The position numbers and the translations under genes were made by a program. Below the pieces are notes generated by a model that made no database searches, was not told the origin of the DNA, and saw only the letters and a list, made by a program, of their open reading frames with translations. 64,000 bases of DNA, taken from positions 1-64,000 of the forward strand of contig JAJRYV010000090.1 of assembly GCA_024275575.1 (NCBI GenBank), written 5' to 3'. This DNA comes from a bacterium (GTDB taxonomy: Bacteria > Zhuqueibacterota > Zhuqueibacteria > Zhuqueibacterales > Geothermadaptataceae). This document shows positions 28,303 to 41,870 of the stretch, in pieces. Every line of letters starts with the position of its first letter. Position 1 is the stretch's first letter.

Positions 28303-28463
28303 TTTCCACATTTCATATTCTACATCGATGTCACATCCTCTGTATAGAGAAGAGACATGACCTGCCTCTTAAACATTTCTTTTTGATACACTTTCCCGCT
28401 TAAGTAAATGTAACATCCTGTTTTTACATGCTATGTCCAGTTCTTTAAAAATTGGCATATTGT

Positions 28464-28494
28464 TTGACAGTAAAGTCAGCAAATTGAATATGTA
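28464..28494 (+). promoter_or_regulatory. Possible promoter upstream of the pseudoenzyme cluster
   Basis: A consensus-like TTGACA stands about 80 bp before the first gene of the cluster, with weak -10 candidates (TATGTA at 19 bp, GAATAT at 16 bp). The 243-bp gap after dinB holds no gene. Weak support. Confidence 0.3.
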
Positions 28495-28545
28495 ATTTGA
28501 AACCGGTGATCAGAGAATCGCAAGACTAACTTAATGTGGCAGGGT

Positions 28546-29334
28546 ATGGAAGAGAAAATTTTACAAGAAACAGTTAGAAACCGGCAAACCGACCTCGAGT
28601 TTTTAAATGTCTATCAACAGACCATCAATGCGCGGGTCGACATCCTGCAAAACGATCCTTCGCCACCATTTCTCAATATATATGATCAACTTTATGGCGA
28701 GACATTTAAGGCGCTGGAGGGATTTGGACAGGATGATGTGGCGAAATTAATCACAGCCCTGTCGACGAACAATGAAATCAGGCCGCAACAGACACTGATT
28801 GTCAGCAGCATGGGAAAAATGGACGGTTGCTCGCATTTTGTGCTCAACCTCGCCCGGGCGCTGCAAAATTATCATCAGCGCAGCGTGATCATCGACGCCA
28901 ATATCAAATCCCGCGGTTTTACGCGCTTTACCCGCCGCCACAGTGAAGGGCTGGGATTAACGGATCTCATCGCCGGCGATGCCCCGATCTGGCGCAGCCT
29001 GACGCGACTCGATGAGTCGGAGGTCTTTTTGCTCGAACGAGGCCGTAACAGAAAAAATGCCGCCAAATTGCTGGATGAGAATAAAGTAGCTGAAATCACT
29101 GAACTCTTTCGCGATTTATTTAATTACATCATCATCGAAGTACCACCCCTGCTCGATGAAAGCAATCTCCAACTCTGGGCAAAACGCGGTGATGCGATCG
29201 TTTTGATCGAAAATGAAGCCGGATTGCACTCGGCGAAATCAGCGCAAATAAAAGAAAAAATCGAAGATATCGGCGTTGAATTTTGGGGTACATTTAAATC
29301 ATCATTAACGACGAATGCTCTGAGGACGGTTTAA
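28546..29334 (+). CDS. BY-kinase/CpsD-like protein with degenerate nucleotide site
   Basis: About 262 residues (an ATG four codons upstream is also possible). From residue 82 it follows the CpsD/Wzc-type P-loop fold: strand TLIVSSMG, helix LNLARALQ, VIIDAN (Walker A' position), GLGLTDLIAGDA, FNYIIIEVPPLLD (Walker B position) and GDAIVLIENEAG. The P-loop is gone: where PGEGKST is expected it reads KMDGCSH, with Cys95 in place of the lysine. Walker A' has DAN for DAD, and Walker B has Glu198 for Asp. ATP binding is therefore unlikely, and there is no tyrosine-rich tail. Residues 1-80 look helical. It is 1 nt from the next gene. Family knowledge suggests a link to exopolysaccharide control; the loss of activity is inference. 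Confidence 0.65.
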   Translation: MEEKILQETVRNRQTDLEFLNVYQQTINARVDILQNDPSPPFLNIYDQLYGETFKALEGFGQDDVAKLITALSTNNEIRPQQTLIVSSMGKMDGCSHFVLNLARALQNYHQRSVIIDANIKSRGFTRFTRRHSEGLGLTDLIAGDAPIWRSLTRLDESEVFLLERGRNRKNAAKLLDENKVAEITELFRDLFNYIIIEVPPLLDESNLQLWAKRGDAIVLIENEAGLHSAKSAQIKEKIEDIGVEFWGTFKSSLTTNALRTV

Positions 29335-29335
29335 T

Positions 29336-30469
29336 ATGCCCCTGATGCAAAACACACCTGTCATTATTTTGCCTCGCAATAATACATCGCTGCGACCGCT
29401 CGCTGAAGACTCGGATAAATTGCTGTTGAATATCGGTGACCGGCCGCTCATCTATCACAATTTAAAAATGCTTGCCGATTCCGGTATGCGCCATGTGTTT
29501 TTGCCGATCCAGTCGGATAATGAATTTTTAAAAGCCTATCTTCAAACCGTCCGATTGCCTGGTTTGACGATACGGACGTGTACGGTGGATGATAATCTCG
29601 GTGAAATCGAAGTGCTGTCAAATCTACAGCGCGCCATCGGTGGGAGACGCTTTTTTGTTCTCACGACTGATGTGCTCCTGCACAATGATTTGACGGATTT
29701 TTACAATACGCATATGCGCCTGAAAAAGATGGTGTCTGCCGGTATTCGACAATTGCCGTTCGACACACGACTTAGTGATGCCATATTCATCGCTAATCTT
29801 GTCGAACAGCAAAATATCAATCCTTATAATTACGACTGGCATCATTATGCTTGCGGTTTGTTTTTATTTGAAAATGAAATTTTTGATGAATTGACCTTTA
29901 ATAAAAAAGAACAAACGTTGGCTGCATTTCTTTTTTCGTATCTCACGAAAAGTAATTTCATGCATCTTGAAGATGTAGAATATCTGTGCCGTGAAATCCG
30001 CAATCTCGATGATTTTATGCATGCTAATTTTAACTGGGTTCGGCGATGTTATTCGACTAAAAAGCAGCAATTCATCAATGCTGGAGACCGCGAGAGCCCC
30101 CTTTGCGTTGGGGAAGTTTACATCGATGCGCAGGCCAGGGTCAGTGCAAAAGCTGTTTTAATTGGGCCTGTGGTGATCGGGCGCGGTTGTAAAATCGCTG
30201 ATGGTGCAGTGGTGCAGCGATCGGTGCTGCGCGGCAATGTCACCATCGGCCGTCATGTGGTTTTACAGGATTGCATCGTCAATCGCGACGCAAACATTCC
30301 GGCTGATACTCGCCACAGCAGTAAGCTCATTCTCGATGATTCCCTGAATTTGCGCCTCGACGATTTTAAACAGGTTTCAGGTGTTTTGAAAAACTACCCG
30401 CCTCATTTGGGGCAGAAACGGGATATGCTTTTTCCCACCCGGCAAAAACGTCTGAACATTACGGTCTGA
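29336..30469 (+). CDS. Nucleotidyltransferase-like protein with left-handed beta-helix tail, degenerate loop
   Basis: 377 residues. The N-terminal 240 resemble sugar-nucleotide pyrophosphorylases (KLLLNIGDRPLIYHNLKML near 28-46, and FFVLTTDVLLHNDLTDF in the nucleotide/metal region). The signature GGxGTRLxP loop is replaced by ILPRNNTSLRPL at 11-22, so nucleotide transfer is doubtful. From about residue 257 there are hexapeptide repeats (VYIDAQARVSAKAVLIGPVVIG and on) as in left-handed beta-helix domains. Probably co-transcribed and coupled with the upstream BY-kinase-like gene. It may bind a sugar nucleotide or act as a scaffold. The family assignment is good; the role is unknown. Confidence 0.65.
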   Translation: MPLMQNTPVIILPRNNTSLRPLAEDSDKLLLNIGDRPLIYHNLKMLADSGMRHVFLPIQSDNEFLKAYLQTVRLPGLTIRTCTVDDNLGEIEVLSNLQRAIGGRRFFVLTTDVLLHNDLTDFYNTHMRLKKMVSAGIRQLPFDTRLSDAIFIANLVEQQNINPYNYDWHHYACGLFLFENEIFDELTFNKKEQTLAAFLFSYLTKSNFMHLEDVEYLCREIRNLDDFMHANFNWVRRCYSTKKQQFINAGDRESPLCVGEVYIDAQARVSAKAVLIGPVVIGRGCKIADGAVVQRSVLRGNVTIGRHVVLQDCIVNRDANIPADTRHSSKLILDDSLNLRLDDFKQVSGVLKNYPPHLGQKRDMLFPTRQKRLNITV

Positions 30470-30507
30470 TCAAAGCGGTGGCCTTTACCTGTAAATATGG
30501 AGATGAG

Positions 30508-30687
30508 ATGAATTTATATGCTGTTTTAGTGAGCTGTATTTTAGTTTTTGGTCTTTATCTGCAAGAGAATTCAGATATGCCTGTGTCTCGATTTGAACAA
30601 CAGGCAAACGTGATAGTTTCTCGACAATTAAATCAAACAGAGCTGCGGATCACCGAGAATATTTGCATCAAGCTCGAAGCCTATTAA
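30508..30687 (+). CDS. Small hypothetical protein with N-terminal membrane segment
   Basis: 59 codons starting with ATG behind a GGAGATGAG box. The first 17 residues are hydrophobic (LYAVLVSCILVFGLYL), the rest polar with several glutamines and asparagines. It lies between the nucleotidyltransferase-like and asparagine-synthetase-like genes, in the same direction. It resembles no family I know. It could be a small membrane partner of the cluster or a chance reading frame. Confidence 0.35.
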   Translation: MNLYAVLVSCILVFGLYLQENSDMPVSRFEQQANVIVSRQLNQTELRITENICIKLEAY

Positions 30688-30711
30688 TGTTGATTACATT
30701 AAATATCAAAC

Positions 30712-32679
30712 TTGCCTGAAATAATCGGGTGCAAAGGAATTATTAATGGCATCTTTTTTGGATTGATCGATTTTGCCAGCCCGGCGCTGGAATCACCACG
30801 TTTTGCAATAAAAAAAATGGCTCAGGTGCATGGAACGAATTTAGCGCATCGCCTCGATTTTTATGCAGATGGCTGGGCGGGGCTGGGCTTTTTGCCGGAA
30901 AGGTTCAATCGTGATGAGCGAAGAGATGTTTTTTATCACGCCGATTCTCTCATCGTCTGCGTCGAAGGGGAAATCACCAATAAATCTTCGCTCGCGGTTC
31001 ATTCGCCGCATGTATCGGCAAAGGATGCCGGCCTACAATTACCGGAACTTGTGTATCATGCTTTCAGGAAGCGCGGGCTGGATTTGTTCGCAGAATTGGA
31101 CGGTTTCTACCGCATCGCAATTTGGGATATCGTGCGGAAATCGCTGTTTATCTCCGGGGATCGAAACGGATTCTGGCCGCTTTATTTTGCCCGTGAGCAG
31201 TCTCGTTTTTTATGGGGTTCCGAGGTCAAATTTATCTTGCGCAGCCTGCGGCGAAAACCGCATGTCAATTTTCAGGCTGTTCATGATTTTCTCCGTTTTG
31301 GTTATATTTTTGATGGCTCGACTTTTTTAAAAGATATTGAACAGATAACCGCAGGTCATGTTTTGCATATCGAACAAGGCGATTTCCAAATTTTGAATCC
31401 GCTAAGTTCAGCTCCTGCTATTGCAACACATTATTCGGTGGAAGACGCCGCAGACACACTAAAAAATGCAGCAATTTCAGGAGTGAAAAGTTTAAGCGGC
31501 GATAAACAAACAGGCATTTTGTTGTCAGGAGGAATCGACGCCCGCTTATTAGCGGCTGCAAGTTCGCGCCTGCACAGCGATACCGTATGCCTGAGCAGTG
31601 GCGATAATAATTCCATTGATGTTCAAATTGCCCGTAAGGTTGCTGAAAAGTGTGGCTATGAGCATCAGTGTTTTTCGAGTGATTCGTTGCAATATATTGA
31701 AAATTTCAAGCGCACAATCTGGCTTGCAGATGGATTGTTGAACGGCGTGCATAATCAGCCGCTCGACCTACTGCCGTTTTTAAAAGACAATCCGCTGACG
31801 GTTCTCGATGGTTTACAGCCGTTACGCGGGCCGTACTATTTGTTTGAAAGCAAATTATGGTCGCGGCGAAAATGGAACGAACAACAAAAAATGTGGCTGG
31901 CCGGGCGATTATTTCCCCATGGTTTTGATGAAATGGAAACAACTTCTAATTTTCCGCAGCTGCAAAATCAGGCTGAAGAATATCATCTTTTTTCAGCGTC
32001 CGAACGATTGCGCTCAATCTGCGCAACCTGGGATTTCGAAAAAGAAAATGCCGAGGAAACGATTGCACCGCTGTATCGCACTTTAAATCATCAGTTTTTT
32101 AAATCCCGTATTTCAGGACTGCTGCGGCACTTTGTCCCGATGTATTCGCCGTTTTATTTATTTTTATATACTGAACTCGTTCGCTCTTTTCCAAAAATAT
32201 GGCAATCGGCAGACCGCTTAATACTGCGAAAAATTATCTCAGAAATTAACCCGGCATTAACGAAAATTCCTTGGCAGGCAACACTTTTGCCGCTCGACAA
32301 AAATCCCTGGGTCGAATATGGCTCGCGTGGCCTGCATTTTATGAAACAGCATTTCACGGAAAATTTCCAGCGGCGAAATCTATTACCGCGCCGCCCCGGT
32401 TCTACAGATTTTTCTAAAAACTATTTTCGCAGTCCGGTTTTTCGGCAATTTGTCCTGAGCACAGTGAAAATGGATACGCCTTTTTCATTTCTGCCAAAAG
32501 AAAAAGCGGAAAAACTGCTTCAAAGGCTATTGCCGGGGGATAGAAAGTTTGAGGAATTGATTTCCCGGTTGATGACAGTGAACTTATGGTATCAATATTT
32601 TATCAAAGGAGAATCCCCGGACCTGGAGAATTTTGACAACAGCAAAATGGAACAACACTTTATTATGGCATCACAGTAA
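30712..32679 (+). CDS. Asparagine synthetase-like amidotransferase lacking catalytic residues
   Basis: As written, the frame is open from a TTG. A better start is the ATG at 30746 behind AAAGGA, which would read MASFFGLIDF and needs one more T in a run of six; this gives 644 residues. The N-terminal domain follows the class II glutaminase fold (GEITN, FRKRGLDLFAELDGFYRIAIWD, GDRNGFWPLYFA), but the nucleophile Cys2 would be alanine. In the synthetase domain the PP-loop reads SGGIDA instead of SGGxDS, and the later GGDE motif is replaced by DGLQPLRGPYY. It is probably glutaminase-dead and perhaps inactive as a ligase. Such proteins occur in exopolysaccharide loci. Third degenerate enzyme in a row here. 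Confidence 0.65.
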   Translation: MPEIIGCKGIINGIFFGLIDFASPALESPRFAIKKMAQVHGTNLAHRLDFYADGWAGLGFLPERFNRDERRDVFYHADSLIVCVEGEITNKSSLAVHSPHVSAKDAGLQLPELVYHAFRKRGLDLFAELDGFYRIAIWDIVRKSLFISGDRNGFWPLYFAREQSRFLWGSEVKFILRSLRRKPHVNFQAVHDFLRFGYIFDGSTFLKDIEQITAGHVLHIEQGDFQILNPLSSAPAIATHYSVEDAADTLKNAAISGVKSLSGDKQTGILLSGGIDARLLAAASSRLHSDTVCLSSGDNNSIDVQIARKVAEKCGYEHQCFSSDSLQYIENFKRTIWLADGLLNGVHNQPLDLLPFLKDNPLTVLDGLQPLRGPYYLFESKLWSRRKWNEQQKMWLAGRLFPHGFDEMETTSNFPQLQNQAEEYHLFSASERLRSICATWDFEKENAEETIAPLYRTLNHQFFKSRISGLLRHFVPMYSPFYLFLYTELVRSFPKIWQSADRLILRKIISEINPALTKIPWQATLLPLDKNPWVEYGSRGLHFMKQHFTENFQRRNLLPRRPGSTDFSKNYFRSPVFRQFVLSTVKMDTPFSFLPKEKAEKLLQRLLPGDRKFEELISRLMTVNLWYQYFIKGESPDLENFDNSKMEQHFIMASQ

Positions 32680-39128: not shown

Positions 39129-39476
39129 AGTTCACTCACCACCAGTATAACTGCTGGCAGGATTTTTCCTGCAAGCGCTATCTCAGGCTGGAAGAGAGCA
39201 ATAAATTTAATCCTTGTTGGCTTTTTCCAATAGTAAAATTTATAAAAACCGTCGGCCATTACTGATGTATATAATGACAGAATTTCATCCGTGCGAATTT
39301 TTTTAGCTGAAATTATTATGTGTATTGGATTGTTTGAGCTCGTTGTGGTAAAGATTGGCTACTGGCATAGCAATTGCTGTTGCCCACAATCTGTTAAACA
39401 ATTTATAGTTTAAAGATGAATTGAGAAATTGGCATATCTTGAGATCGTGCTCTGACCATAAAAAAGGAATTAACAA

Positions 39477-41870
39477 ATGAGCGAAAGCAAAGCAGAAACC
39501 CGCGAAAGCGAAGAAGAGTTAGATACCCGTATTCCGCAGGTGCTGTCAGTTCTGCCATTACGAAATACGATCATTTTTCCACATCAGATTCTGCCGTTAC
39601 AGATCGGCAGAGAAAAATCACTAAAACTGATCGAAGAAGCTGAACTCGACAATGCGGAAATGCTTGTTGTTGCCCAGAAGAATGCCCAGGTCGATGATCC
39701 GGCGCCAAAGGATTTATTTAAGTGGGGGACCATCGTTCAGGTAATAAAGGCATTCAAGATGCCTGATGGCACACAGAGTGTGATGGTCCAGGGGCTGGGC
39801 CGTGCCAGGATTCTGGACTACATCGAGGACAAACCTTTTTTAAAAGCCGCTGTGCAGCCGGTCGATGATCATGATATCAGTGGAATGGATGTGGATGCGA
39901 TGGTGGTCAATCTGCGAAATTTATTCCAGAAAACAGCTGAGTTGGCTCCCTACCTTTCACCCGAGCACACCATGCTGGTGATGAATACGGATTCTCCGGG
40001 GCGGCTTTCTGATGTCATCGGCTGGAACCTGAACGTTTCCATTGACGACAAGCAAAAAATTCTTGAAAAAGTTGACGTGCGCAAAAGACTCGAATTCACC
40101 ACTGTCCTGATTACCAAAGAACTGCAAATTCTTGAGTTGGGAAGTAAAATCCAGGATCAGGTTCAGGGGGAAATCTCCAAAAGCCAGCGCGAATACTATT
40201 TACGCGAACAACTCAAAGCCATTCGCCAGGAGCTCGGCGAGGATCAGGACGAACGAATGGTCGAAATAGAAGAGTTGGAAAAACGGCTCGAGGAAGCGGA
40301 AATGCCGGAAGAAGCCTACAAGGTGGCCAAAAAAGAGATCGACCGTCTCCGGCAAATCCCTCCGGCAGCAGCTGAATATACCGTTTCCCGAACCTATCTC
40401 GACTGGCTGCTCGATTTGCCATGGAGCCGTGCGACAACCGATAATCTCGATATTTCCCGGGCCCGTGAGGTACTGGATGAAGATCACTATGGTCTGGAAA
40501 AAGTCAAAAAACGGATTCTGGAATATCTAGCTGTCCGTCAACTAAAAAGTGATATGAAGGGGCCGATCCTGTGTTTTGTCGGCCCACCGGGAGTCGGTAA
40601 AACTTCGCTGGGCAAATCCATTGCCCGGGCCCTCGGGCGCAAGTTCTATCGCATGTCCCTCGGTGGCGTTCGCGACGAAGCTGAAATCCGCGGTCACCGG
40701 CGGACTTATATCGGCGCTTTGCCGGGGCGGTTTATTCAGGGGCTAAAAAAAACGGAGAGCAATAATCCGGTGATCATGCTCGATGAAATCGACAAAGTCG
40801 GACAGGATTTTCGCGGTGATCCCAGCTCTGCGCTCCTGGAGGTACTCGATCCCGAACAAAATAATTCGTTCTCTGATCATTACCTCGATGTGCCTTTTGA
40901 TTTGTCAAAAGTGCTGTTTATTGCCACTGCGAACATCTCCGATACGATACAGCACGCCCTCCATGATCGCATGGAAATTATTGAAATTCCAGGTTACACT
41001 TCCGAAGATAAAGTACATATTGCCCGTCGGCACATCATCCCAAAACAATTAGATGGCCATGGGTTAACCGGCAAACACGTCGAAATTACGGATGATGCTA
41101 TTCGCGCAGTGTTGGCAGGTCACACGCGCGAGGCCGGCGTTCGAAATCTGGAAAGGGAAATAGCAAATATTTTACGCGGCGTGGCAAAGGAATATGTCGA
41201 TGGTGACAAGAATTTAAAAAAAATCACCTCGGTTGATCTCAAAAAATACCTGGGCCCTGAAAAATACTATTTTGATGTGAAAGAGCGCGTTTCGCGGTCA
41301 GGCGTAGCTACCGGCCTCGCCTGGACACCCGCCGGAGGTGATATTTTATTCGTCGAAGTGACCAAAATGACCGGTAAAGGGCAACTCCTTTTAACGGGAC
41401 AGTTGGGCAGTGTGATGAAGGAATCCGCGCAAGCAGCCCTGTCTTATATCCGCTCAAAAGCCAATTCTTTTAAGATTAAAAATGATCTGTTTGATAAAAC
41501 AGATTTGCATGTTCACGTGCCTGCCGGCGCCATTCCCAAGGACGGTCCCAGTGCAGGAGTCGCGATTTTTACAGCTTTTTTATCCTTGTTAACCGGGAAA
41601 TTAGTGGCAAATGACATTGCCATGACCGGTGAAGTGACTTTACGCGGCCTGGTATTGCCGGTCGGCGGGATTAAGGAAAAGGTGCTGGCGGCAAAACGCG
41701 CCGGCATTAATAAAGTTATCTTGCCGGCAAAAAACAAAAAGGATGTCGAAGACGTTCCGCAGGCCATTCGTGACAAAATGAAATTCATTTATATCAATGA
41801 AACTGATGAAGTCATGAAATATGCACTATTGTCAAATTCCCGCAGCAGAAGCAGCAAAAAGAAGGAATAA
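39477..41870 (+). CDS. lon: ATP-dependent protease Lon
   Basis: 797 residues. N-terminal substrate-binding domain from PLRNTIIFPHQILPLQIGRE; coiled-coil middle; AAA+ domain with Walker A GPPGVGKTSLGKS (about 368-380), Walker B VIMLDEIDK and sensor FIATANI; C-terminal protease domain with the catalytic serine in KDGPSAGVA (near 691) and lysine in GGIKEKVLAAKRAG (near 734). Degrades misfolded and regulatory proteins in the cytosol. The AAAGGA box is well placed. No CIRCE-type heat-shock operator was seen upstream. Standard length for the bacterial LonA type. Confidence 0.97.
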   Translation: MSESKAETRESEEELDTRIPQVLSVLPLRNTIIFPHQILPLQIGREKSLKLIEEAELDNAEMLVVAQKNAQVDDPAPKDLFKWGTIVQVIKAFKMPDGTQSVMVQGLGRARILDYIEDKPFLKAAVQPVDDHDISGMDVDAMVVNLRNLFQKTAELAPYLSPEHTMLVMNTDSPGRLSDVIGWNLNVSIDDKQKILEKVDVRKRLEFTTVLITKELQILELGSKIQDQVQGEISKSQREYYLREQLKAIRQELGEDQDERMVEIEELEKRLEEAEMPEEAYKVAKKEIDRLRQIPPAAAEYTVSRTYLDWLLDLPWSRATTDNLDISRAREVLDEDHYGLEKVKKRILEYLAVRQLKSDMKGPILCFVGPPGVGKTSLGKSIARALGRKFYRMSLGGVRDEAEIRGHRRTYIGALPGRFIQGLKKTESNNPVIMLDEIDKVGQDFRGDPSSALLEVLDPEQNNSFSDHYLDVPFDLSKVLFIATANISDTIQHALHDRMEIIEIPGYTSEDKVHIARRHIIPKQLDGHGLTGKHVEITDDAIRAVLAGHTREAGVRNLEREIANILRGVAKEYVDGDKNLKKITSVDLKKYLGPEKYYFDVKERVSRSGVATGLAWTPAGGDILFVEVTKMTGKGQLLLTGQLGSVMKESAQAALSYIRSKANSFKIKNDLFDKTDLHVHVPAGAIPKDGPSAGVAIFTAFLSLLTGKLVANDIAMTGEVTLRGLVLPVGGIKEKVLAAKRAGINKVILPAKNKKDVEDVPQAIRDKMKFIYINETDEVMKYALLSNSRSRSSKKKE

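Follow-up and report, generated by a model that had tools for sequence, protein, structure and literature searches.

A row of genes in the window, that is, the whole 64,000-nucleotide stretch of DNA analyzed here (positions 1 to 64,000 of contig JAJRYV010000090.1; contig C68 of the 4.96 Mb genome G000), encodes a BY-kinase-like protein (K), a nucleotidyltransferase-like protein (N), a small open reading frame (ORF) product (S) and an asparagine-synthetase-like protein (A). The arrangement of K, N and A is real and conserved, and its members are degenerate exopolysaccharide proteins; it is best called a polysaccharide accessory system of the BY-pseudokinase kind, with a mechanism that we infer. 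The reading that we prefer, and to which we give an even chance, is that K, N, S and A form an accessory module for Wzx/Wzy-type surface-polysaccharide assembly, which would act by binding and not by catalysis and would derive from a complete exopolysaccharide locus. No description of a K-N-A arrangement was found in the literature. The features are as follows:

28453..28468, + strand: sigma54-like -24/-12 element TGGCATATTGTTTGAC, 81 bp before K; a consensus match
28534..29334, + strand: K, BY-kinase-like, 266 aa (TIGR01007, 4.3e-17); Walker A Lys to Cys, A' DxD to DAN, Walker B Asp to Glu, no Tyr tail
29336..30469, + strand: N, nucleotidyltransferase plus left-handed beta-helix, 377 aa (NTP_transferase, 5e-7; Hexapep, 4e-7); without the G-loop GxGxR
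30508..30687, + strand: S, small ORF, 59 aa; hydrophobic N-terminus, conserved C-terminal (T/N)-(E/D)-N-(I/V)-x-x-K
30712..32679, + strand: A, asparagine-synthetase-like, 655 aa counted from TTG (GATase_7, 1e-12; Asn_synthase, 2.5e-7); no Cys2, degenerate glutaminase and ATP sites

The stop of K and the start of N are separated by 1 bp. An earlier note on this DNA had described three adjacent, co-oriented genes; the common orientation of K, N and A stood, but they are not strictly adjacent, S lying between N and A, and the K start proposed there (28546) is an internal ATG of the ORF. Profile matches were to TIGR01007, a polysaccharide tyrosine autokinase family, for K, nucleotidyltransferase/hexapeptide families such as TIGR03992 (1e-19) for N, and TIGR01536 (4e-31) for A, all under their curated cut-offs, and comparison with PHROGs returned solely families of unknown function.

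Active sites of K, N and A

The P-loop of K reads SSMGKMDGCSH, with Cys where Lys is expected (GCS for GKST), Walker A' is DAN, and Walker B is IIIEVPP, with Glu at the Asp position; the last 30 residues contain 0 Tyr. K does not qualify as an active BY kinase, as both the P-loop Lys and the Tyr tail are missing. The same Lys is absent from 11 of 11 aligned K proteins of the window's family and a sister family, those from five other genomes of the window's family included. The structural model of K (mean pLDDT 70.7, a moderate confidence) matched the kinase domains of VpsO, Etk and Wzc (E ~5e-13). In its motifs and predicted fold, K has the features of a BY pseudokinase of the EcpK/HfsB type. 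EcpK of Myxococcus xanthus binds a kinase-less chain-length protein (PCP) and is needed for exopolysaccharide, and HfsB of Caulobacter is, like EcpK, a stand-alone BY pseudokinase of a PCP-2 protein (PMC12004946). K shares with them the BY-kinase fold, the alteration of all Walker motifs, the lack of a Tyr-rich tail and the stand-alone architecture; EcpK and HfsB belong to the Wzx/Wzy pathway, and the eps genes of M. xanthus are likewise split over two separate clusters. By analogy, EcpK is the nearest precedent for K. However, window K has no adjoining PCP and is followed by N and A, whereas K of the sister family adjoins a kinase-less PCP. In profile comparison, K proteins of both families were nearest to stand-alone pseudokinases encoded beside kinase-less PCPs; the window's own genome has such genes on contigs C99 and C62.

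In N, ILPRNNTSLRPLA stands where GxGxRLxPLT is expected, an NNTS loop taking the place of GxGxR, and a metal-binding Asp is retained at one column in G000 and G001 only. With neither the G-loop nor the metal-binding aspartates intact, N does not qualify as a sugar-1-phosphate nucleotidyltransferase. Its best-conserved portion is the beta-helix. The model of N (pLDDT 74.9) matched tlr0611 as well as GMPPA/GMPPB, eIF2B and VTC1-KJC2, the last three at E 1e-13 to 5e-15. GMPPA, eIF2B gamma-epsilon and the KJC regulatory subunits, which are among these top structural matches, also combine a nucleotidyltransferase domain with a left-handed beta-helix and have lost catalytic residues; they are eukaryotic, whereas N is a member of a bacterial operon beside a pseudokinase. 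GMPPA, described as a non-catalytic regulator (PMC11228364), would be a precedent for N.

Regarding A, a class II glutaminase-like N domain and the beginning of a synthetase domain place it near the AsnB / beta-lactam synthetase / lasso cyclase superfamily, from which it differs in being degenerate at both active sites. VEGEITN replaces FNGEIYN, SGGIDA replaces SGGxDS, and the GKxGF motif is absent. A does not qualify as a glutamine-dependent asparagine synthetase, since Cys2, NGE, SGGxDS and GDGGDELFGGY are all missing. The SGGxDS column differs in nearly every lineage (SGGIDA, SGGIDS, SGGLSS, SGGISS), and A of G001 keeps SGGIDS. The start of window A is doubtful. The homologue-like start, MA(x)FFG, corresponds to ATG 30746 and has a good ribosome site (AAAGGAATTATTAATG), but its frame is offset by one base from that of the remaining gene and, as assembled, ends at a stop after six codons, the long frame opening at TTG 30712. 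From the sequence, this conflict would mean either that the assembly is wrong by one base or that the window's genome has recently acquired a frameshift. A six-T run was observed after the homologue-matching start (30746-30770). The earlier note had read an Ala in place of Cys2: Cys2 is indeed missing, but the Ala call depends on which start is taken. Its broader observation, that family motifs are kept and catalytic signatures gone in all three proteins, was borne out by motif inspection, no complete active site being found in any of them.

Conservation in the family and the locus of a sister family

The set recurs across genomes of the window's family, so that the earlier note's proviso that homologues might never co-occur elsewhere can be set aside. 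K, N and A are found together in G000, G001 and G004, K and N in G002, and K and A in G003 and G005; orthologues thus exist in G001, G002 and G004 for N and in G001, G003, G004 and G005 for A. A search of genome contigs with N returned as sole match the contig already represented as G001. Where flanks are available the site is conserved: enoyl-CoA hydratase, amidase, dinB and the cluster, then (G002 excepted) aldo/keto reductase (AKR), malQ and S1. In G003, G004 and G005 a GT4 glycosyltransferase gene directly follows A; the absence of a nearby glycosyltransferase remarked on in the earlier note is therefore true of the window but not of these three relatives.

Between G001 and the window, identity is 53% for K, 51% for A and about 63-64% for N, and 68-83% for flanking genes. 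The ratio of nonsynonymous to synonymous substitution (dN/dS; NG86, G003-G005) was 0.07 for K and 0.08 for A, as low as in the flanks (dinB 0.06, amidase 0.07, AKR 0.04, S1 0.09; GT4 0.12), which indicates purifying selection despite the missing catalytic residues. Most other within-family pairs were saturated, and N was not measurable in this way in the window's family. The degenerate set is not a product of local decay: it occupies the same site in other genomes, with K and A under constraint. Thus the earlier suggestion of open frames maintained by selection holds for K and A; catalytic residues are lacking in all relatives found. As a general explanation for K and A, simple decay, which the earlier note had named as the contrary outcome, is rejected; for the window's copy of A it may still apply, given the frame conflict where that gene begins.

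Relatives of K, N and A also occur in a second family of the same order, here the sister family, inside a complete Wzx/Wzy exopolysaccharide locus with the order OPX, PCP (Wzz/GNVR, no kinase domain), K, a nucleotidyltransferase/hexapeptide/phosphoglycosyl transferase (PGT) fusion, Wzy, Wzx, GT2, A, and MBOAT/SGNH or PMT; a GT4 homologue is present as well. The locus was found in G008, G010, G011, G012 and G014, and without K in G009; those of G011 and G014 are split across contigs, and OPX is seen only where the contig extends that far. The exopolysaccharide link proposed in the earlier note is therefore confirmed by the same kinds of genes. The P-loop of sister K is GEGTST, without Lys, and sister A has neither Cys2 nor the GDGGDELFGGY motif. 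Sister N keeps GASGAR and PKP; its metal-binding Asp is replaced by Asn, its second Asp varies, and it is fused to a PF02397 PGT retaining its DE dyad; the fusion lies, for example, at L068:15272-17002 (- strand), with relatives in L067, L069, L070 and L074. A literature search on nucleotidyltransferase-PGT fusions and AsnB pseudoenzymes gave nothing relevant. In G009, the chain-length protein (L069:5674-7542, + strand) carries, in the place taken by a separate K in the other sister genomes, a long C-terminal extension rich in Pro and Ala.

Since the K Lys and the A Cys2 are missing in both families, the two losses are order-wide, and a parallel loss of activity within this row, as the earlier note had it, is not upheld. 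Judging from the motifs compared, only two changes are confined to the window's family: the loss of the G-loop in N and the erosion of SGGxDS. A proteins of the two families form a single clade (support 100/100), apart from canonical AsnB and XrtA-type proteins, with window A on a long branch. This clade is present in 11 of the 82 genomes of the phylum, all of them in the window's order. The XrtA/PEP-CTERM exopolysaccharide locus (TIGR03018 kinase, TIGR03108 amidotransferase) draws on the same superfamilies as K and A, and a locus with such proteins exists on contig C20 of the window's genome; nevertheless, the A clade is separate from the C20 proteins. XrtA-linked membership was rejected on this tree and on scores well under the curated cut-offs, 45 vs 230.65 bits for K (TIGR03018) and 90.9 vs 816.9 bits for A (TIGR03108).

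The promoter-like element and the small ORF

The element TGGCATATTGTTTGAC also occurs at the same place before K in G001 and G002, and in G010 and G011 OPX, with which the exopolysaccharide locus begins, is preceded by TGGCATAACGTTTGAC. The pattern TGGCATANNNTTTGAC, 16 bases picked after being seen, has 8 occurrences in 15 genomes, 1 of them in the window's genome, against 1 for the reversed control pattern. With a sigma54 matrix of hand-set weights, strong sites were found before A in three sister genomes and before N and GT4 in one sister genome each, and weaker ones before A in G003-G005. A gene for RpoN is present in the window's genome. The consensus applied matches the one in the literature, tGGcacg / tTGCt (PMC4641369); the -12 part before K is TTTGA, not TTGC, and hence atypical. 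The module would probably be sigma54-regulated, as suggested by a consensus match rather than a mapped promoter. Elsewhere in the window, a good sigma54-like site, TGGCATAGCAATTGCT, lies at 39363-39378 (+ strand), 114 bp before the lon protease gene at 39477.

Counterparts of S, with a conserved C-terminus, follow N in G001 (86 aa, GTG start) and G002 (65 aa), the latter although A was not found there. The comparison covers these three related genomes of one genus: the G000-G001 and G000-G002 alignment scores beat all 500 shuffles, and that of G001-G002 was reached by 5 of 500. From these features, S may be a small membrane or periplasmic protein of the window's genus.

Interpretation and alternatives

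In the preferred reading, K would be a non-phosphorylating scaffold that directs an assembly partner, such as a chain-length protein. N would be a regulatory subunit that binds either a sugar nucleotide or, in the manner of GMPPA with GMPPB, a true pyrophosphorylase, and A would be a scaffold with the AsnB fold; the module would act in trans on other loci. The ancestral locus would have been a full exopolysaccharide locus like that of the sister family. In the window's family its polymerase, flippase, OPX, chain-length and PGT parts would have been lost from the locus or replaced elsewhere, leaving K-N-A as a separate unit. A narrower proposal, that the all-pseudoenzyme operon (pseudokinase, pseudo-nucleotidyltransferase and pseudo-asparagine synthetase) and a small membrane peptide make up one regulatory or scaffold complex controlling a surface-polysaccharide machine encoded elsewhere, is put forward only tentatively.

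Several observations weigh against an accessory module. No OPX, PCP, Wzy or Wzx is present at the window's locus, and in G003 and G005, which have K, no PCP of the two kinase-less types sought was found at comparable strength. A candidate partner is encoded on contig C96 of the window's own genome (L140:8845-11202), where OPX and a PCP occur in a polysaccharide locus with no kinase gene nearby; this pairing is not supported, as G003 and G005 have K without such a PCP and G006 has such a PCP without K. K proteins of the two families do not group together in the K tree, and by tree and profile comparison N of the window's family is no closer to sister N than to other nucleotidyltransferases; owing to long branches, the trees do not decide direct K and N orthology between families. 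Gene content is uneven (N absent from G003 and G005, A from the G002 locus), and none of K, N and A was found in G006, which is 83% complete. The frame conflict in window A also counts on this side, as do the atypical -12 part, the hand-set matrix and the late choice of the promoter pattern. Finally, window A has 68 private substitutions vs 46 for G001 (p 0.05), an excess counted as weak because dinB leans the same way.

Single-member losses keep alive the hypothesis of a slowly eroding remnant, in which an exopolysaccharide locus is lost gene by gene; the genes still present would have little function left or none, and their catalytic losses would be a step towards disappearance. Different genomes miss different members, the locus no longer contains PCP, PGT, Wzy or Wzx, SGGxDS varies from lineage to lineage, and window A combines a frame conflict with a long branch. 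We nevertheless regard this as unlikely: apart from that conflict the frames stay open, although identity between the genomes is only 25-64%, the dN/dS values of K and A are low, N is nearly as similar between G000 and G001 as the flanking genes, and the promoter element is retained in three genomes. In the K-A gaps of G003 and G005, no N-like open stretch was seen (three frames, by eye).

Alternatively, K, N and/or A could be enzymes with altered working sites, for example A using ammonia or an amine, or N acting as a hexapeptide acetyltransferase. The strong selection on K and A, the conserved beta-helix of N, the SGGIDS of G001 A and the motifs kept by sister N and its PGT domain would suit such a role. 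We consider it quite improbable, as A is without several separate active-site motifs in both halves, K has lost the Walker A, A' and B residues, and active-site positions vary between genera, unlike those of a new active site.

Recruitment to an unrelated, for example peptide-related (RiPP-like), job with S as product or partner is very improbable: S does sit between N and A, and A is weakly similar to lasso-peptide cyclases (NF033535, 56 bits, cut-off 525), but the ATP site of A is degenerate, no protease or RRE gene is adjacent, S occurs in one genus only and persists in G002 where A was not found, and every link found leads to exopolysaccharide loci. A lasso peptide cluster was rejected on the score, SGGIDA, the missing GDGGDE motif and the lack of a protease among adjacent ORFs.

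BY pseudokinases have only recently been shown to replace phosphorylation in exopolysaccharide assembly. Our data indicate that stand-alone proteins of this type are employed by several loci within a single bacterial order, and that some add degenerate versions of two more pathway enzymes alongside. If the module works, a set of dead enzymes can steer polysaccharide assembly, and K-N-A, three genes detached from the polymerase locus, offers a small test case.

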